From Lachnospiraceae bacterium (lineage in GTDB: Bacteria; Bacillota; Clostridia; Lachnospirales; Lachnospiraceae): 64,000 nucleotides of DNA. A program made the translations under genes and the position numbers. Where the stretch lies: the NCBI GenBank assembly GCA_017433725.1, contig JAFRGQ010000082.1:1-64000 (forward strand), read 5' to 3'. The notes under the pieces are model-generated. The model was given only the letters and a program-made list of their open reading frames with translations. It made no database searches and was not told the DNA's origin. This document shows positions 12,435 to 55,164 of this stretch, piece by piece (positions within the stretch are counted from its first letter, which is position 1; the number at the start of each line of letters is the position of its first letter).

Positions 12435-13166
12435 TTATATCTTTTTCATGCGAATCCGGAAGCAGCTTCTGTCAGTTACACCTTCGAACAGGCGGGCATC
12501 GTCCGTTTGATACGCCCTGACGGTGATTGTATCACCGGGACGTACCTCCGTCAGATACTCCGCTTCAATCAATGTGTTATCATATCCGATGTATTCTTCC
12601 GTCGGAATCATATCCTCGACCACATCGAAATACCTGCAGTTGTTGACATGCCCATTAATGTCAATGTGACTGAAGCGTGCTGTGTAAAGATTCTCGGAGA
12701 CAAGCCGGAGGTCATCAGTATTTCTGAACCAAATCGCAAGAGAGCGCGGTTCGGGAATCTCGTTTCCCGTGAGAAATCCTTCTATCTCGATTCCGTACTC
12801 ATCGGGGAAGATAAAGTTCCTGGTCTCCTCGTCAATCAGCATCCACATGGCACATCCCCTGACAATGGTTTCGTCTCCCGACGAGACCTCATAATATCTC
12901 GGGAAAAATACCCGCATAGTCGGACCGGGCCATGACCTGAACGTTACTTCCTCATCGTAGCGGGGCATTCTGATGATTTCAGCAGACTGTCTGGCAATGA
13001 TCCAGAGAAGACCTTTGTCCAATGTCTTATCACGTCCGACTCCGAGAGCTTCCGTGTGTGATATGGATGCTTCCTGAAAGAAACCGAGCATGTTGGATAG
13101 CCTGAGCTCGCGATGCCGCGTTACATCACGGCTGTGTATAGTAAATGTTTTTTCGAAATAATCCAT
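12435..13166 (-). CDS. Acyl-ACP thioesterase (FatA/FatB-like double hotdog)
   Basis: The 243-aa protein has two hotdog halves typical of bacterial acyl-ACP thioesterases. The first half carries HRELRLSNMLGFFQEAS. The second carries the catalytic block FSHIDINGHVNNCRYFD, with the Asp-x-Asn-x-His and NN-x-x-Y residues of the plant FatA/FatB family. It should release a free acid from acyl-ACP in the cytoplasm. It is last in a three-gene minus-strand operon (ligase, ACP, thioesterase) with gaps of 11-13 bp. Its own ribosome site is weak, consistent with coupling. Chain length preference cannot be inferred. Confidence 0.85.
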   Translation of the reverse strand: MDYFEKTFTIHSRDVTRHRELRLSNMLGFFQEASISHTEALGVGRDKTLDKGLLWIIARQSAEIIRMPRYDEEVTFRSWPGPTMRVFFPRYYEVSSGDETIVRGCAMWMLIDEETRNFIFPDEYGIEIEGFLTGNEIPEPRSLAIWFRNTDDLRLVSENLYTARFSHIDINGHVNNCRYFDVVEDMIPTEEYIGYDNTLIEAEYLTEVRPGDTITVRAYQTDDARLFEGVTDRSCFRIRMKKI

Positions 13167-13177
13167 AGTTAATTTCT

Positions 13178-13432
13178 TTATTTTGAATACTTTTCTATTG
13201 CATCAATGAGTTGCCCGAGCGTCTTCAGACGGTTCCATTTACGGTTTGGGATCTTAACATCGAATTCTGCCTCAATCTTGCAGATAACAAGAATGAAGTT
13301 CATGGAATCCATAGCCATGTCCGTGTTCACAACAGAATCTTCATCGAGCGGGACTCCGTTCAATTCCGGAACACAATTGTAAATGATTTTCAATGTCCGC
13401 TCCTTAATTTCATCTCTTGACAGTTTTGCCAT
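13178..13432 (-). CDS. Dedicated acyl carrier protein
   Basis: The 84-aa acidic protein has the 4'-phosphopantetheine site MAMDSMNF, with Ser43 in the DS motif, followed by ICKIEAEFDVKIP, the usual ACP helix. GGGAG lies 7 nt before ATG 13432. Being sandwiched between an acyl-activating ligase and a thioesterase suggests a pathway-specific carrier, not the housekeeping AcpP of fatty-acid synthesis. The DSM instead of DSL motif also differs from the usual AcpP. Confidence 0.85.
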   Translation of the reverse strand: MAKLSRDEIKERTLKIIYNCVPELNGVPLDEDSVVNTDMAMDSMNFILVICKIEAEFDVKIPNRKWNRLKTLGQLIDAIEKYSK

Positions 13433-13445
13433 TTTAAATCTCCCT

Positions 13446-14996
13446 TCAGACTAAATGTCTTTCAATTTCCCATCGTCGTATCTTGCCCGTTGCAGTTCTC
13501 GGAAGCGGTTCGCCATAGCTGAGGACACCGCAGATACGGAGCCCCATCGCTCTCTTCTCGTTGAACCTTGCAAGCAGATTATCTATGTTTTCGGGTATGC
13601 TTCCTTCAGACTCACCGATGACCAGGAACGGTCTGTTTTCTTTCAGAATGACGGTGAGATCCGATAATCCAATAAGTTCCGAAAGCTCCTCTTCATATTC
13701 CGGACAAAATACCTTCGTGCCGTCCGGCAGCACGAGCATGTCTTTTTTTCGTCCTGTAAGATGCAGTGCACCTTGCGCATCCAGAGATCCGAGATCCCCC
13801 GTGTAGAGCCGTTCGCTCTGAACCGGGATGATCGGATGGCCGAGCACGTACGCAGAATTGTCATTGTTTTCTGCTTTATCGCTTCCTGCATCTTCTCTGA
13901 CTGTCTCCGAAAAATCCAGATAACCTTGCATCATGCAAGGCGTCGCAACAGAGATCTCACCGTCCGGTTCGATGCGAATATCCGCACCGGGACATGGATA
14001 GAGCGCGAACGGATCCTTTTGGTCCTGAGTGATAGCAATCCCGCTGGATGTCTCTGTCAGTCCGTATCCAAGATAGACCTTCATCCCCATTTTCTGCAGT
14101 GCTTTCACCGAAACGGAATCGAGCGGCGCCGCACCGATAAGCACGACCTTGAGGCTGTCGGGGAGCGCATGCTGCTGCATGAGCATTCTAAGCAGGGAAG
14201 GTACGACCGGAAGAATAGTGGGTTTAAAGAATTCGCAGTCACTTAAGAGATACCTTGTGCCTCTGCCGAGCGCAATGGTCGCACCGTAAGTCAGTCCCCA
14301 CAGCATTGTACAGACAAAACCGAAGACATGGGAGAACGGGAGCAGTGACAGAATGATATCACCCGGTCCGCACGGCAGCATACTCTGTCCGGAGTAGCTG
14401 CTGCAAAGAAGGCTCTCTGACGTGAGAACGACGGCTTTGGAGCTGTCGGTCGTTCCCGATGTGAAGAAAATGAGGCGGCCCTCACGATTCTCAACTGCGC
14501 CGGAAGAGTAACGCCGGCTTTCCTCATCGGTCTGATGATCTGTAACAGAACATTGGCTGCTTTCTTCATCGGCGTGAAGTTCCGCAGCAGAATCCGTCAA
14601 TTTCATGTTGCATGTCGGTTCAAAGGTTTGAGGCGCGCATCCGCACTCTTCACATAACTCCTCAAGCAGGTCGGGATCGGAAGCGTAAACGCTCTCCGCG
14701 CCTGCCATACGGGCCAGCGCAAACAGTGTCTCATCGGGCGTATTCTCATCGATCAGGGTGACATCGCAACCGGATATCACACAGGCGAATATGCGGATAA
14801 TCGTTGCCGGCTCGTGATCGGTCACAATCAGTTCGTTTCGGATGCCGGACTGCCGTATCTCGCTTGCCGCGCTGCGGATCATGTCCGACAGTTCTGCGTA
14901 TGATATGGCTTTCGAATCATCTCCGTAGATAATTGCCGTACCGGAATCGGCACTCCATACTTTGTGTATATTCTTGAATAAATGATACATTTGCAT
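13446..14996 (-). CDS. AMP-dependent acyl ligase (acyl-CoA/acyl-ACP synthetase family)
   Basis: The 516-aa ANL-superfamily enzyme has the ATP loop FFTSGTTDSSKAVVLT, the acyl-site motif GYGLTETSSG, the hinge region YTGDLGSLDAQG with LTGRKKDM, and the C-terminal catalytic-lysine segment PRTATGKIRRWE. It activates a carboxylic acid as acyl-AMP and probably loads it on the adjacent ACP; that acceptor is inferred from gene order. Start 14996 has GGAG 7 nt upstream; a longer UUG-start frame to 15032 lacks one. A divergent operon begins about 110 bp away. Confidence 0.82.
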   Translation of the reverse strand: MQMYHLFKNIHKVWSADSGTAIIYGDDSKAISYAELSDMIRSAASEIRQSGIRNELIVTDHEPATIIRIFACVISGCDVTLIDENTPDETLFALARMAGAESVYASDPDLLEELCEECGCAPQTFEPTCNMKLTDSAAELHADEESSQCSVTDHQTDEESRRYSSGAVENREGRLIFFTSGTTDSSKAVVLTSESLLCSSYSGQSMLPCGPGDIILSLLPFSHVFGFVCTMLWGLTYGATIALGRGTRYLLSDCEFFKPTILPVVPSLLRMLMQQHALPDSLKVVLIGAAPLDSVSVKALQKMGMKVYLGYGLTETSSGIAITQDQKDPFALYPCPGADIRIEPDGEISVATPCMMQGYLDFSETVREDAGSDKAENNDNSAYVLGHPIIPVQSERLYTGDLGSLDAQGALHLTGRKKDMLVLPDGTKVFCPEYEEELSELIGLSDLTVILKENRPFLVIGESEGSIPENIDNLLARFNEKRAMGLRICGVLSYGEPLPRTATGKIRRWEIERHLV

Positions 14997-15023
14997 AAAA
15001 TTACTCCGTTTATTGCAAATATC

Positions 15024-15052
15024 TTGTGACAATTATATAATTAACTTATGAT
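15024..15052 (+). promoter_or_regulatory. Promoter of the flavoprotein operon
   Basis: TTGTGA (15024-15029) and TATGAT (15047-15052) are 17 nt apart, with a very AT-rich spacer. The start would fall near 15059, 46 nt before the ATG. The divergent ligase gene starts at 14996, so the two arms share about 110 bp of regulatory DNA. Confidence 0.6.
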
Positions 15053-15104
15053 AATTTCTACATAAAAAGGCAAATATTAATTCAAAACAATAAAGGAGAG
15101 ACAC

Positions 15105-16463
15105 ATGGCAAATATTAATGAGAAGATATGCATTATAGGTGCAGGACCGGCTGGTCTTTCAGCGGCAATGTATCTTGAACAGAAAGGTTACTTCAATTAC
15201 ACGATCCTTGAGAAAGAGGATCATGTCGGTGGAAAATGTCATTCACCTCACTACAACGGCAGAAGATATGAGATGGGAGCAATCATGGGCGTGCCGTCCT
15301 ATTATGCCGTTCACGATGTGGAGGAATTCTGCGGTATTACACACGACGGGCCGAAACTGAATCGTAATTATAAGAATCTGAAGGGCAAGGTCATCGAGCC
15401 GTTCGAGCCGAAGAAAAATCCGCTCAAGATTCCTCGTCTGCTCAAGATGAGAAAGCAGTTGAAGAAGTTCGGTGAACTCCTTGAGACAAAGTATAAGGGA
15501 TATGATGTCAACGGACACCGCGGCGTGGCGGAAGGCCGCTATGACGGATATGCCGTAACACCGGGACGCGAGAAGATTTCCGGCGAGAACCCGAATCTGA
15601 AGGAGCTGGCTCTCCCGTTCAAGGAGTTCTGTGAACTCAACGGCGTTGAACTCATTCAGGACATCTGGATCGGACCGTTCACTTCTTTCGGCTACGGATA
15701 CTTTGATGAGATTCCGGCAGCGTATGTCCTGAAATACCTTGATTTCCAGACGACCATGAATTTCGTCAAGGTCAATCTCTGGACATGGAAAGAGGGCACA
15801 CAGTATATCTGGGAATGCCTGAATGACAAGCTTCGCAACCAGGCAAGACTGAATTCCGATATCACATCCGTCGAGCGTCATGACGGAAAAGTATTCGTGA
15901 CTGTGAATGACGAAGTCGAAGTATATGACAAGATTATTGTGACGGCACCGCTTCAGTTCCTGCCGAAATATTTTGACGCGACAGAGGAAGAGAAGGAGCT
16001 CTTCTCGAAGATCGATTATGAGAGATATGACGTTCTCGCAGTCGAGACAAAACCGGAGAATCATCCTGAAATTTCCTATTATATCTTTGACAACATGACT
16101 CCGGAGAGATATGGTCATCTGATGGTTTACTACCGCCGTTGGAAAGACAGCGTGGATCAGGTCATTACGACCTACGCACTGCGCAATCACAGAGGGAAGA
16201 GAACGTACAAGACAACCGCATGCAAGAAGATAGTTCTTCAGGATCTTGAGGCTATGGGAAATGCAGCATCCAAGGTCGTCAATGAGAAGAACTGGTACTA
16301 TTTCCCGCACGTTTTCACCGAAGACTATGCAGCAGGCTGGTATGACAAGGTCGAGGCTATGCAGGGTATGAACGGGACCTACTATGCCGGTGAGATCATG
16401 TCCTTCGGCGACATGGATGAGACAGCTGAGTATTCACGTGAACTTGTGGACAGATTCTTCTGA
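15105..16463 (+). CDS. FAD-dependent amine-oxidase/protoporphyrinogen-oxidase-like oxidoreductase
   Basis: The 452-aa protein opens with a dinucleotide-binding fold, [17 protein letters not shown], and the second flavin motif EKEDHVGGKCHS. It is a member of the large NAD(P)-binding/flavin-monooxygenase-like clan. No signal peptide or membrane helix is visible. AAAGGAG lies 6 nt before ATG 15105. The substrate is unknown. As first gene of a three-gene operon with a CrtI-like enzyme and a ferredoxin reductase, it may act on an acyl or polyene substrate held on the ACP coded by the divergent operon. That is inference from context only. Confidence 0.75.
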   Translation: MANINEKICIIGAGPAGLSAAMYLEQKGYFNYTILEKEDHVGGKCHSPHYNGRRYEMGAIMGVPSYYAVHDVEEFCGITHDGPKLNRNYKNLKGKVIEPFEPKKNPLKIPRLLKMRKQLKKFGELLETKYKGYDVNGHRGVAEGRYDGYAVTPGREKISGENPNLKELALPFKEFCELNGVELIQDIWIGPFTSFGYGYFDEIPAAYVLKYLDFQTTMNFVKVNLWTWKEGTQYIWECLNDKLRNQARLNSDITSVERHDGKVFVTVNDEVEVYDKIIVTAPLQFLPKYFDATEEEKELFSKIDYERYDVLAVETKPENHPEISYYIFDNMTPERYGHLMVYYRRWKDSVDQVITTYALRNHRGKRTYKTTACKKIVLQDLEAMGNAASKVVNEKNWYYFPHVFTEDYAAGWYDKVEAMQGMNGTYYAGEIMSFGDMDETAEYSRELVDRFF

Positions 16464-16532
16464 TGACAAACAGTCAGGGGCTGTCGCACTGAGGCAAATA
16501 ACCGCTGTTCATAGCTGACATTTTCTGCAAAT

Positions 16533-16561
16533 AATATCTGCAGACGTTAACCGCAGATATT
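16533..16561 (+). other. Hairpin between the two flavoprotein genes
   Basis: AATATCTGC (16533-16541) pairs perfectly with GCAGATATT (16553-16561). No U-run follows; it may be a transcript-processing or attenuating structure inside the operon. The remaining 195-bp gap shows nothing else clear. Confidence 0.4.
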
Positions 16562-16657
16562 GACTGCAAATGTATGCTATAGATTTCGGTGATGTTTCCT
16601 GTTGCGGCAACCCCTCTCTTTATCTGCATGTGAGCACGAGCTTAAACAGGAGTAAAT

Positions 16658-18262
16658 ATGAAGTTTTATAAAGAGCATTATGATGTGATTATTATGGGCG
16701 CAGGTCTCGCAGGTCTGTCCGCAGCCCTGCAGCTTCAGGCCAGAGGCATCACAGACATTCTGATCCTGGAAAAGCATAACCTCCCAGGCGGTCTCGCCAC
16801 GAGTTATGTCAGGAACGGAATCGAGATCGAGGCAACACTCCATGAGATGATGTCGATCGGTTCTAAGGAGGATCGGCTGAAGGTCGGCACGTTCTTTGAC
16901 GAGATGGGAATTGATATTGACTGGCTGAAGGTACCGGAAGCGTATCGTTTTATTGAGAAGACGAAGAAGATCGACATCACCCTGCATTCAGGTTTCAAGA
17001 CCATGTCGGATGAAATCGACGCGCAGTATCCGGGATGGGGTGACAAAGTTTATGATTTTATGAATCTGTGCAACCGGGTCTACAATTCCATGAATACCCT
17101 TTCTGTCACGCCTATGAGTAAGCCGGAGATGCTGAAGAAACATCCTGATTTCGTCAAGACAGTCGGATATTCTGCAAAGCAGGTCATGGAAACGTATGAA
17201 TTCCCGCAGGATATAGTAGATATACTGACGCCGTACTGGATCTATGTCGGCAACCCGATGAGTTCACTTCCGTTCACGATCTACGCTTTCCTTATGGCGG
17301 ATTACTTCCGCGGAGGAAGTTATGTCTGCCGCAATTTCTCACACGAGATGAGTATGAAGCTGCAGGCTAAGGTGGAGGAGAACGGTGCGCAGATCGAGTT
17401 CCGTCAGGAAGTCGAGAAGATTCTTGTCCGCAATAAGAAAGTATACGGGGTGCGCACGAAGAGAGGGGACGAGATATTTTCCGATTATGTCATCAGCGCC
17501 GCATACCCGAACAAGGTCTACACGCAGATGATCGAGCCGCTGTCGGAAGTTCCGGTTAAAGCGATAAAGATGGTCAATGCAAGGAAGCTGTCCGTCTGCC
17601 CGGTCTCGGTCATGATGGTCCTGGACGGAACGCCGGAGGAACTCGGGATTCGGGATTATAATGTCTTCTCGGGAGATACGATGGATACGGACAAGATCTG
17701 GGAGAATTACCACACGCTCGGCCCGTACGGATACCTGACATCGATTTGCCTCAATCTGGCCAATCCGGGTTGCACGCCGGAGGGATATACACAGTTCTCC
17801 ATTACCGCTCTTCCTCTGGTCGATCCGTTCCTCGAAGTGAAGGAGACGGAGTATCATGCGCTGAAGCGTCGTCTGGCCTCGGAGATGATAGCGAATTACG
17901 AGGAGACAACAGGGGTGAACATTCACGACCATATCGTTGAGATCGAGGTGGAGACGCCGGTCACGGTTGCACATTATGTCGGTGCATGGAAGGGAAGCAT
18001 TTACGGATACTCCCATTCGCTGGATGACCACGCAGTCGCACGCCTTCAGATGAAGGAGGAAGATCATTTTATTGAAGGTCTGGAATTTGCCGGTGCGCAC
18101 GGCATGTCAGGGAACGGTATGGGACCCGCTGTGACGAACGGCCGGGCAGCCGCCAAAGGGGTACTGGATTCGCGCAAAGAACAGAAAGAAGATTACAGAC
18201 TGGTATCAGGCTATATGAAACTGGCTGCAATGATGAACAGGAGAAAGGGGGCCGACAAATGA
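16658..18262 (+). CDS. Phytoene-desaturase/carotenoid-isomerase-like FAD oxidoreductase
   Basis: The 534-aa protein has FAD motif VIIMGAGLAGLSAALQLQ, the second motif EKHNLPGGLATSYVRNG, and the C-terminal FAD-site pattern GLEFAGAHGMSGNGMGPAVTNGR, a layout close to CrtI/CrtN desaturases and CRTISO isomerases. These enzymes remove or move hydrogens on long hydrophobic chains. No carotenoid synthase (CrtB/CrtM) is present nearby, so a non-carotenoid lipid substrate is likely. The last 4 bp overlap the ferredoxin-reductase start (ATGA), a sign of coupling. Confidence 0.78.
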   Translation: MKFYKEHYDVIIMGAGLAGLSAALQLQARGITDILILEKHNLPGGLATSYVRNGIEIEATLHEMMSIGSKEDRLKVGTFFDEMGIDIDWLKVPEAYRFIEKTKKIDITLHSGFKTMSDEIDAQYPGWGDKVYDFMNLCNRVYNSMNTLSVTPMSKPEMLKKHPDFVKTVGYSAKQVMETYEFPQDIVDILTPYWIYVGNPMSSLPFTIYAFLMADYFRGGSYVCRNFSHEMSMKLQAKVEENGAQIEFRQEVEKILVRNKKVYGVRTKRGDEIFSDYVISAAYPNKVYTQMIEPLSEVPVKAIKMVNARKLSVCPVSVMMVLDGTPEELGIRDYNVFSGDTMDTDKIWENYHTLGPYGYLTSICLNLANPGCTPEGYTQFSITALPLVDPFLEVKETEYHALKRRLASEMIANYEETTGVNIHDHIVEIEVETPVTVAHYVGAWKGSIYGYSHSLDDHAVARLQMKEEDHFIEGLEFAGAHGMSGNGMGPAVTNGRAAAKGVLDSRKEQKEDYRLVSGYMKLAAMMNRRKGADK

Positions 18263-19437
18263 AAATAGAAAGCTTTTTGAAAGATGTCGGCGGAGCTTCA
18301 AGGGTGACCTCCGCACGCCGCGAAAAGTTCAGGAAAGGCTCCCCTATACCGGAACCTGAAGATCCGATCCGCGAGCTGTCCGATGCTTTGCATCCGGAAA
18401 AGATGCGCTTTATCGTGACGGATGTGAGGGATGTTTCCCCGACATCTAAGACGTGGAGGCTCAGGTCAACCGACGGACACATTCCGATCTTCCAGTCCGG
18501 ACAGTACGTATGCTTCCACCTGCAGATCGGTGACAGTGTCCTGAACCGTCCCTATTCCATCTCATCGGCTCCGTTTGAATCAAAGTGTGACAATCCTTTT
18601 ATTGAGGTGACAATACGCAGGAACAGACCTTATTTTGTTCCGGACTATTTCTTCGATCATGTAAAGGTCGGGGAGGTCCTTTGGGGCTCGATGCCGTTCG
18701 GAACATTCTATTATGAACCGCTCCGCGATTCAAAGAATGTCGTTGCGATAGCCGGCGGCAGCGGTATCACGCCGTTCCTCTCGATGGCCAGGGAAATCGC
18801 AGCAGGGTGGCTCGATGTCAATCTCACGATCATCTACGGTTCCGTTCACTCGTCGGATATAGTGTGCGGCAGAGAACTGGATGAAATCGACGGAAAATGC
18901 GATAAAGTCAAAGTCGTTCACGTGATGTCCGACGATCCGGATTGGCAGGGCGAGAAAGGCTTTGTTAACCGGGAGATAATAGAGAAGTATTCCGGGGAAG
19001 ATACGACGTATATGTTTTGCGGTCCGTACGCCATGTATACATTTGTCGAAAAAATTATGAAAGAGATGGGTGTACCGGCAGGAAGATTTCGCAAGGATGC
19101 GATCGCTCAGCCCGATGTGAGCCTGATTCCCGGTTATCCCTCGGATAAAAAAGACGAGGTCTATATGATCAAGGTCGTGAGAGGTATTCACGAGGATATC
19201 ATACAGGCAGCAGCTTCGGAACCTGTTGCGGTCGCGGTCGAGAGGGCGGGCATAGCACTCGATACGCACTGCCGCGGAGGTGAATGCGGAATGTGCAGAA
19301 GCCAGTTGCTTGAAGGTGAGATTTTCGTATCGCCGATCGGGGACGGAAGACGCCGCATGGATAAGGAGCTCGGATGGTTCCACGCATGTTCGGCGTATCC
19401 GATGTCCGACCTTGTGATCAAGATTCCGATTCTGTAA
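18259..19437 (+). CDS. Flavin reductase fused to 2Fe-2S ferredoxin domain
   Basis: The 392-aa protein has an FNR-type FAD domain (NRPYSISSAP), an NAD(P)H domain (IAGGSGITPFLSMARE, then MFCGPYAMY), and a C-terminal plant-type ferredoxin domain with cluster cysteines in HCRGGECGMCRSQ and HACSAYP. It moves electrons from NAD(P)H through flavin to a 2Fe-2S centre, as in phenol hydroxylase or CDP-6-deoxyglucose reductase components. A roughly 45-residue N-terminal extension precedes the reductase. In this operon it is the obvious electron partner for the two upstream flavoproteins. Confidence 0.85.
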   Translation: MKIESFLKDVGGASRVTSARREKFRKGSPIPEPEDPIRELSDALHPEKMRFIVTDVRDVSPTSKTWRLRSTDGHIPIFQSGQYVCFHLQIGDSVLNRPYSISSAPFESKCDNPFIEVTIRRNRPYFVPDYFFDHVKVGEVLWGSMPFGTFYYEPLRDSKNVVAIAGGSGITPFLSMAREIAAGWLDVNLTIIYGSVHSSDIVCGRELDEIDGKCDKVKVVHVMSDDPDWQGEKGFVNREIIEKYSGEDTTYMFCGPYAMYTFVEKIMKEMGVPAGRFRKDAIAQPDVSLIPGYPSDKKDEVYMIKVVRGIHEDIIQAAASEPVAVAVERAGIALDTHCRGGECGMCRSQLLEGEIFVSPIGDGRRRMDKELGWFHACSAYPMSDLVIKIPIL

Positions 19438-53607: not shown

Positions 53608-55164
53608 ATGCGAGTCTTAATAATTGGCGCCGGTCCGGCCGGTATAACAGCCGGCTATGAACTTAAAAAGAGAGCTCCCGAGACAGATGTTACGATTCTT
53701 GAGGAGAGCGGAAAAGTCGGCGGGATATCAAAGACTGTGAAGTATAAAGGCAATCGGATGGATATCGGCGGGCACAGGTTCTTCTCCAAGGACACGAGAG
53801 TGACTGATTGGTGGGAGAGCATCATGAAGACACAGGGAGCGCCCGCGTATGATTATAAAATGCTCGGAAGAGATTCGACCGTTGTGCCGGGGGGACCGGA
53901 TCCTGAAAAAGAAGACCGGGTCATGCTCATAAGGAACAGAGTATCCCGTATTTATTATCGAAAAAAGTTTTTTGACTATCCTGTCAAAATGAATACCAAT
54001 ACGATCCGTAACATGGGTCTTGCAACGACTGCGGAGGCGGGGGTTTCCTATCTCACCTCTATGGTCAAAAAGCTTCCGGAGGATTCACTGGAGAATTTCT
54101 ACATCAACCGGTTCGGGAAAAAACTGTACTCCATGTTTTTTGAAGGGTATACCGAGAAGCTCTGGGGCAGACATCCGCGTGAAATCTCGGCTGACTGGGG
54201 ATCCCAGCGTGTCAAAGGTCTTTCTATCCTTGCCATCATCCGGGATATGGTCATGAAGATGAAACCCGGCAAAGTTGATGCGAAAAAAGTGGAGACATCT
54301 CTGATCGAGGAGTTTTCCTACCCGAAATACGGACCCGGACAGCTTTGGGAAACGGCCGCATCCGATTTCGAAGCGATGGGCGGCACCATCATAAAGCATG
54401 CCCGCGTATGCGGAATCAGTAATATTGAAGGTCATGTGAACGGTCTTACGTGGATGGATGAGACGGGGCTGACCCATGATGAGCAGTCTGATATTATCAT
54501 CTCATCGATGCCGCTCAAGGATCTTGTCGCGGATATGCGTGATGTACCGGAAGAAATCGCAGCAATCGCGGAAGGACTCCCGTACAGAGATTTTGTTACG
54601 GTAGGTCTGCTGGTGAAAAAACTCAATCTGAAAAATGAGACAGATATACCGACTCTCGGGAATATTGTTCCGGACAACTGGATCTACGTGCAGGATACGG
54701 GCGTGAAACTCGGTCGAATTCAGGTCTTCAATAACTGGTCGCCTTACATGGTTAAAGATCCGGAACATACCGTCTGGATCGGACTTGAATACTTCTGCTC
54801 CGAGGGAGACGAATACTGGTCGATGCCGGGCAGAAAGTGGAAAGCCCTCGGCGTGCGTGAGCTCAAGAAGATGGGCGTCATAACAGGTATAGAAGATGTG
54901 CTTGACGCGCATTGTGAGAGAATCAAAAAAGCTTATCCTGCATATTTTGATACTTACCAGAGAATCGATGAGCTGATTGAATACCTTGATACATATGACA
55001 ATCTTTACTGCATCGGAAGGAACGGGCAGCACAGATACAATAATATGGATCATTCGATGGAAACAGCGTTCCAGACTGTTGACAATATTCTGGCCGGCAG
55101 AAAGGACAGGAGCAATATCTGGAACGTTAACACTGAAAAAGAGTATCATGAGGAAAAATCGTAA
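53608..55164 (+). CDS. FAD-dependent oxidoreductase, UDP-galactopyranose mutase-like
   Basis: The 518-aa protein has [17 protein letters not shown], the second flavin motif [24 protein letters not shown] and the characteristic [24 protein letters not shown], followed by [14 protein letters not shown]. Proteins of this group accompany polysaccharide glycosyltransferases and resemble UDP-galactopyranose mutase and protoporphyrinogen oxidase, but their substrate is not settled. It begins the surface-polysaccharide locus, 14 bp after the carboxypeptidase gene. The GT-C gene follows after 2 bp. Confidence 0.8.

Follow-up and report, generated by a model that had tools for sequence, protein, structure and literature searches.

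A six-gene cluster in a Lachnospiraceae genome is a candidate module for the biohydrogenation of polyunsaturated fatty acids

Contig JAFRGQ010000082.1 of a Lachnospiraceae bacterium (GenBank assembly GCA_017433725.1) encodes a divergent cluster of six genes at positions 12435–19437 of the 64,000 nucleotides that we analyzed (positions 1 to 64,000 of the contig; "the window"). We propose that this cluster is probably a module for the biohydrogenation of polyunsaturated fatty acids (PUFAs). The right arm encodes a close relative of a fatty acid isomerase of solved structure (PAI), a flavoprotein that is a candidate conjugated-diene reductase (CRT), and its putative electron donor (FNR). The left arm encodes an acyl ligase (LIG), an acyl carrier protein (ACP), and an acyl-ACP thioesterase (TE). 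We read the set as a functional module because it is joined in several arrangements in different genomes. An earlier note on this DNA, made from the sequence alone, had listed six open reading frames (ORFs) with these domains; we found all of them, with one small correction (the start of LIG).

12435–13166, minus strand: TE, a FatA/B-type acyl-ACP thioesterase (PF01643 with 75 bits and PF20791 with 47 bits, both above the cut-off)
13178–13432, minus strand: ACP, probably an extra acyl carrier protein (PF00550; phosphopantetheine serine in DS(M/L))
13446–15032, minus strand: LIG, an AMP-forming acyl ligase (PF00501 with 153 bits; the actual start is probably the ATG at 14990–14996)
14997–15104, no strand: intergenic region between the divergent arms, where both strands have sigma-70-like sites (consensus matches only)
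15105–16463, plus strand: PAI, polyunsaturated fatty acid double-bond isomerase family, FAD (PDB 2b9w, E = 8.1e-143)
16658–18262, plus strand: CRT, a CrtI/CrtISO-superfamily flavoprotein and candidate conjugated-diene reductase (TIGR02734 and TIGR02730, below the cut-off)
18259–19437, plus strand: FNR, a reductase with FAD, NAD(P), and 2Fe-2S, the putative electron donor of CRT (PF00175 and PF00111 above the cut-off; PF00970 just below)

Because the TTG start codon of the LIG ORF (at 15032) lies within promoter-like sequence, and because relatives of LIG align from around the ATG at 14990–14996 (36–42 bases inside the ORF), the true start is probably this ATG, which would leave about 110 bp between the divergent arms. 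The ORFs of CRT and FNR overlap by 4 bases. There is no ketosynthase among the nine proteins that we scanned (the six and three that flank them), so the chain would be modified and not built, just as the earlier note had argued; polyketide or fatty acid synthesis was rejected for the same reason. The GC content of the cluster (0.493) matches that of the window (0.495), so its composition does not support recent foreign DNA.

The first enzyme is related to a solved isomerase

The earlier note had described PAI as an amine-oxidase-like flavoprotein. This is right for the fold, but the kinship to a solved enzyme was missed: PAI is 54.1% identical (in an alignment of 22 rows) to the polyunsaturated fatty acid isomerase of Cutibacterium acnes (PDB 2b9w), and the next match in PDB is far weaker (E = 1.3e-8). 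The homology is nearly full length, in two stretches (residues 5–139 and 166–452 of the query). The PAI of the window is about 22 residues longer than the C. acnes protein, with the difference lying between C. acnes residues 134 and 139. Both proteins have Arg88 and Phe193, whose grip on the fatty acid was reportedly described by Liavonchanka in 2006; we take Arg88 to be the residue that binds the carboxylate. Counting the C. acnes row, Arg88 is found in all 22 aligned rows and Phe193 in 21 of the 22. This strong homology predicts that PAI is a double-bond isomerase of the C. acnes type. Since PAI is a 54% relative of a solved isomerase, the first step of the proposed pathway has a named biochemical precedent. 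According to excerpts of PMC2885616, the C. acnes isomerase converts linoleate to trans-10,cis-12 conjugated linoleic acid (t10,c12-CLA) in heterologous hosts.

We grouped the PAI relatives by their identity to the C. acnes row, without a tree. Clade A comprises the window's PAI and eight others (52–56% identity), clade B has seven rows (45–48%), and the remote groups C and D have five rows (25–31%). A scan of viral contigs with PAI found no relative.

We also noticed some neighbors of the more remote genes. At 3 of 3 loci, a helix-turn-helix (HTH) protein of about 353–355 amino acids that looks like a transposase is encoded directly upstream of a remote PAI-like gene (L069:8153–9211, L070:4990–6054, and L073:5230–6294); Pfam gives the HTH families for the L073 copy only. 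Two membrane proteins that look alike are encoded at L071:9544–10470, beside the CRT-FNR pair of genome G060, and at L069:9495–10427, close to the PAI-like gene of G170. The L069 protein belongs to DUF5692 (Pfam), and the L071 copy was judged by eye. In the window itself, 53608–55164 encodes a further FAD/NAD-binding protein, which resembles PAI in its N-terminal part only; downstream (by eye) are a membrane protein and an ORF that looks like a sugar nucleotidyltransferase.

CRT and FNR look like one reductase

By profile, CRT joins the superfamily that comprises CrtI, CrtISO, and retinol saturase. A profile of nine CRT relatives has its best PDB matches in 4rep and 4dgk. CRT differs from this superfamily in having a partner gene, FNR, and in scoring below the curated cut-offs of the best 25 of 69 families. 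For instance, it scores 107 bits against TIGR02734 (cut-off 238) and 102 bits against TIGR02730 (cut-off 587), both under half of the cut-off. Because of these low scores, homology does not give the reaction of CRT. Carotenoid biosynthesis was rejected: besides these scores, none of the nine scanned proteins matched a family of carotenoid synthesis.

FNR has the motifs C-x4-C-x2-C-xn-C, RPYS, and GGSGITP. It is encoded directly downstream at 33 of the 34 distinct places with CRT (at least 26% identity and more than 1 kb of room). This count leaves out places with under 1 kb downstream (L003, L004, L011, L094, L098–L102, and L108) and any second copy of a place already counted; it includes both L019 and L020, which are near-identical relatives. 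None of the nine loci with CRT relatives of at most 25% identity and at least 60 bits (L030–L037 and L047) has FNR directly downstream. Matches below 60 bits or under 230 residues were not counted, and in one uncounted locus (L040) there is an FNR-like stretch at a distance of about 5.6 kb. Because FNR adjoins CRT at 33 of 34 places, we consider the two genes to be a unit. Together, their products resemble a single flavoenzyme driven by NAD(P)H, and the reduction of C=C bonds is its most likely reaction.

CRT-FNR pairs occur in the taxonomic order to which the window belongs. They are also encoded in metagenome-assembled genomes (MAGs) whose titles name groups of Clostridia, and in one MAG each labeled Treponema and Alcanivoracaceae. 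Among the matches listed, the wider CRT-FNR loci include MAGs from horse feces and goat rectum. In G197, a remote PAI-like gene (26%), CRT, and FNR form a tandem.

A ligase, a carrier protein, and a thioesterase

The motifs of LIG (FFTSGTT, GYGLTET, GDL, GRK, and PRTxTGK) are kept in 9 of 9 aligned sequences. Similarly, the DS attachment site is invariant in the 11 cluster ACPs that we aligned, and the D and NGH columns are invariant in 10 cluster TEs (one of them truncated). TE has the D-x-N-G-H motif, which is presumably catalytic, and belongs with the acyl-ACP thioesterases; its relative in PDB is 2own (E = 1.5e-16).

The ACP of the window is one of five ACP-like places in a genome that is 77% complete. 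Because there are four further ACP-like places, we think that this ACP is probably an extra, dedicated carrier. It scores 34 bits against TIGR00517 (cut-off 70 bits), taken as the mark of a housekeeping ACP; this score discriminates poorly, as no ACP of this genome passes (the best has 66.6 bits).

In the MAG that holds L021 (G297), there is a second LIG-ACP-TE set (L072, on G297:C173), followed by HypB and OXR (a recurrent neighbor that is described below). L072 also has an 86%-identical fragment of PAI at the contig end. This second set is perhaps an artefact of the MAG.

The two arms are joined in several orders

The gene content, conservation, homology, and linkage of the cluster were observed directly. 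The earlier note had treated the six genes as one unit, and a search for the gene set, which it had suggested, bears this out: the set recurs elsewhere, for example in MAGs with Clostridiaceae and Ruminococcaceae in their titles. Seven genomes other than the window's were seen to have the six genes complete (G295, G238, G337, G400, G420, G493, and G520). Four more genomes have part of the set, and three of these are cut by contig ends.

There are four arrangements: divergent, two collinear, and one split. The divergent order is complete in G295 (L019) and G337, and partial in L020 (cut at the contig edge inside LIG) and L021 (cut after ACP). In G656, which is also divergent, LIG-ACP-TE is complete and PAI is cut. 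G238 fits the divergent order, with both arms ending at contig edges. The collinear orders are LIG-ACP-TE-PAI-CRT-FNR (G493 and G520) and PAI-CRT-FNR-LIG-ACP-TE (G400). In G420, the set is split, and LIG, another ORF, ACP, TE, and OXR are on a second contig with a HypA-like stretch. G555 has PAI, CRT, and FNR only; no left arm was found in this genome, which is 82% complete and has a contig end inside PAI. Most of the cluster genomes differ in their flanking genes (by eye), although L019 and L020 have theirs in common. In three cluster genomes, FNR is followed by OXR. Of all the evidence presented here, the joining of the arms in varied orders argues most strongly for a single process that both serve.

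To describe the distribution of these genes, we used a family sample of 397 genomes and an order sample of 295 genomes. In the family sample, 17 genomes have matches to CRT (E ≤ 1e-30), with 9 close ones (at least 45% identity), and 14 genomes have matches to PAI (9 of clade A and 5 of clade B). Eight genomes have both a close CRT and a clade-A PAI (hypergeometric P = 6e-15, uncorrected for relatedness), and the two genes adjoin in all 8. The two odd genomes are G656, where the contig ends inside PAI, and G368, which has CRT without a match to PAI. In view of this rarity and linkage, we rejected the idea of common genes that are neighbors by chance. In the order sample, LIG has matches (E ≤ 1e-20) in 6 of 295 genomes: the window's, G238, and four with weaker matches (of which that in G289 is the strongest) and without matches to PAI or CRT.

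We also compared 27 genomes, which were picked for holding PAI or CRT and are not a random sample. Twelve of these have a clade-A PAI (G000, which is the window's genome, G238, G337, G400, G420, G493, G520, G555, G656, and G295–G297, with loci L019, L020, and L021). CRT and FNR follow PAI in 11 of the 12 (G656 is cut), and LIG is present in 11 of the 12 (the miss is G555). LIG was found in none of the 7 genomes with a clade-B PAI (G111, G181, G362, G374, G491, G497, and G516), in neither of the 2 with close CRT but no clade-A PAI (G119 and G368), and in none of the 6 with remote CRT only (G060, G170, G197, G234, and those behind L023 and L025). G170 and G197 also hold remote PAI-like genes.

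Among the matches listed, the cluster-bearing relatives include Clostridiaceae S12M_St_41, Clostridiaceae Tb.RUG.426, and Ruminococcaceae RUG14835, where RUG presumably stands for rumen uncultured genome. The cluster as a whole seems to be an accessory trait: despite the lack of a foreign-DNA signal, G491, which is from the window's genus, has a clade-B isomerase beside OXR (L123, on G491:C45) and no close match to CRT or LIG.

Proposed pathway

We propose that PAI would shift a double bond of a free cis,cis acid, such as linoleate, to form a conjugated diene (by analogy, t10,c12-CLA). LIG would load the acid onto the dedicated ACP. FNR would pass electrons from NAD(P)H via FAD and 2Fe-2S to the FAD of CRT, and CRT would saturate one double bond of the diene; the resulting monoene would be trans-10 18:1 in the case of a 10,12 isomer. 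TE would then free the product acid. The substrate, the reaction of CRT, the electron flow, and the ACP-bound step are all inferences. The earlier note had conceived of a full cycle carried on ACP. In our proposal, the reduction is most likely on ACP and the isomerization perhaps is not: we place the tethering after PAI because the kept Arg88 suggests a free-acid substrate. The bacterium would gain by removing toxic PUFAs and by disposing of reducing equivalents (an electron sink).

More tentatively, it is possible that uncultured gut and rumen bacteria hydrogenate PUFAs on a dedicated ACP, using a free-acid isomerase, a ligase, a CrtI-fold saturase with its own reductase, and a thioesterase. 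If so, CRT-FNR would be the founding member of a family of diene reductases, and these uncultured lineages would be a source of trans-10 fatty acids. The window's genome also encodes an oleate hydratase (G000:C19:78232–79728; PF06100, E = 2.9e-206), which may be another hint that the organism is exposed to unsaturated fatty acids.

Alternative explanations

Several observations weigh against biohydrogenation by one six-gene module. The kept Arg88 suggests that PAI itself takes a free acid and not an acyl-ACP. CRT is below the curated cut-offs, as mentioned above, and CrtISO, from the same superfamily, is an isomerase. CRT-FNR pairs are widespread without PAI, so their substrate need not be CLA, and the sole exception to the pairing (G368:C2) is a close CRT without FNR. 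The five clade-B genomes of the family sample have neither LIG nor a close CRT. The patterns of pairwise identity of the six genes agree in part only (Spearman correlations of 0.08–0.82 for the 15 gene pairs). And LIG has relatives outside the cluster, in G289 (33% identity, E = 1.5e-40), in G052, G199, and G158 (26–32%), and in the window's own genome (G000:C73; 32%, E = 3e-27). We inspected the flanks of the relatives in G289 and G000:C73, and there is no ACP or TE beside these two.

In G420, the right arm lies apart and the left arm is on another contig, together with OXR and the HypA-like stretch. So we also considered that the arms might be separate: PAI, CRT, and FNR would hydrogenate free acids, which would fit the kept Arg88, while LIG-ACP-TE would be a loop for the salvage or release of acyl-ACP, with only its regulation in common. 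This seems rather doubtful, as LIG was found in 0 of the 9 genomes with a clade-B PAI alone or a close CRT alone, and as the arms occur together in three distinct orders. The earlier note had stated that independent occurrence of the two arms would speak against a single pathway. For the right arm, such independence was seen in part: it lies apart in G420, it was found without a left arm in the incomplete genome G555, and its genes have relatives outside the cluster, both clade-B isomerases and CRT-FNR pairs. The left arm was not seen without the right arm, but the G289 ligase is little weaker as a match than the weakest of the cluster ligases, that of G400 (E = 1.1e-46).

The substrate might be a different polyene (arachidonic, conjugated linolenic, hydroxy-, or isoprenoid acid), or the product might be a signalling lipid, with the isomerase-saturase logic unchanged. 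Many relatives of CRT-FNR lack PAI and have varied contexts, so this family may handle more than one substrate, and since the window's genome has an oleate hydratase, it may treat fatty acids in more than one way. However, we think another substrate unlikely for this cluster, given that PAI is 54% identical to a linoleate isomerase and has the same Arg88 and Phe193. It is quite improbable that the cluster performs isomerization only, with PAI and CRT both redox-neutral, FNR keeping the flavins reduced, and conjugated or trans acids forming without net hydrogenation. CrtISO does need reduced FAD, and the second-best curated match of CRT is to a carotenoid isomerase (TIGR02730). But the near-strict pairing of CRT with an NAD(P)H reductase (33 of 34 places) suggests that electrons are used stoichiometrically, and two successive isomerases would seem redundant.

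Comparison with known systems

In the excerpts of PMC7339423, C. acnes stops at t10,c12-CLA and does not form t10-18:1, whereas the cluster in the window links its PAI to a candidate reductase pair, a ligase, an ACP, and a thioesterase. The same excerpts describe t10-18:1 as appearing in co-culture of C. acnes with Butyrivibrio fibrisolvens. They also report that C. acnes was the sole maker of trans-10 products among 28 pure cultures, that it is questionable as their source because of its very low abundance, and that trans-10 intermediates have not been unambiguously assigned to particular rumen bacteria. Since the cluster joins an isomerase of the C. acnes type to a putative reductase, and since some of the genomes that hold it have names of the rumen type, it would offer candidate genes for the trans-10 shift (milk fat depression).

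The CLA reductase (rumenate reductase) of B. fibrisolvens was reportedly studied by Hughes in 1982, and its sequence is said to have been reported by Fukuda in 2007. CRT-FNR would be a concrete candidate family for this enzyme. The reaction that we propose for CRT-FNR, and its putative NAD(P)H dependence, for which the sign in the cluster is the FNR gene, would resemble the reaction and NADH dependence described in excerpts of PMC4478896. According to the same excerpts, rumenate reductase could not be traced in genomes or databases in 2015.

The CLA-HY/DH/DC/ER pathway of Lactobacillus plantarum has the same outcome, the saturation of linoleate. Its families (hydratase, short-chain dehydrogenase/reductase, decarboxylase, and enone reductase) are not among the six cluster proteins. 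An MCRA hydratase (the oleate hydratase mentioned above) is encoded elsewhere in the window's genome; the other three families were not sought genome-wide.

Among the literature matches listed (titles and the starts of abstracts, with subscription journals and preprints mostly outside), there is no description of this gene set, nor of CrtI-like or ACP genes tied to biohydrogenation. The cluster is most likely a PUFA biohydrogenation module in which the first enzyme has a solved relative and the reductase and ACP steps would be new. CRT-FNR is a candidate for the reductase gene that is missing from the picture of fat hydrogenation in the rumen and gut. Conjugated fatty acids act on host immunity, according to excerpts of PMC11271093.

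OXR, a recurrent neighbor

OXR is a Fer4/Fer4_20/Pyr_redox protein of about 940 amino acids with an NfnB/GltD-like C-terminal part and an N-terminal part of about 310 residues without a match in Pfam. Examples are encoded at:

L112:4703–7516
L117:9445–12375
L073:8639–11311
G000:C73:52863–55679 (the window's genome)

The last of these is about 3 kb away from the LIG relative on G000:C73. The window, L110, L113, and L114 have no OXR near the cluster, and L122 has none near its isomerase. In 11 loci (L005, L072, L073, L111, L112, L115, L117, L119, L121, L123, and L149), OXR adjoins or nearly adjoins PAI, CRT, FNR, or LIG-ACP-TE. A gene for a HypA- or HypB-like protein (a nickel chaperone) is beside OXR in several loci. 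OXR (E ≤ 1e-100) is present in 26 of 120 genomes from the family, and in all 21 genomes that were chosen for PAI or close CRT, a set that overlaps with the 120. OXR may be the partner where CRT-FNR is absent.

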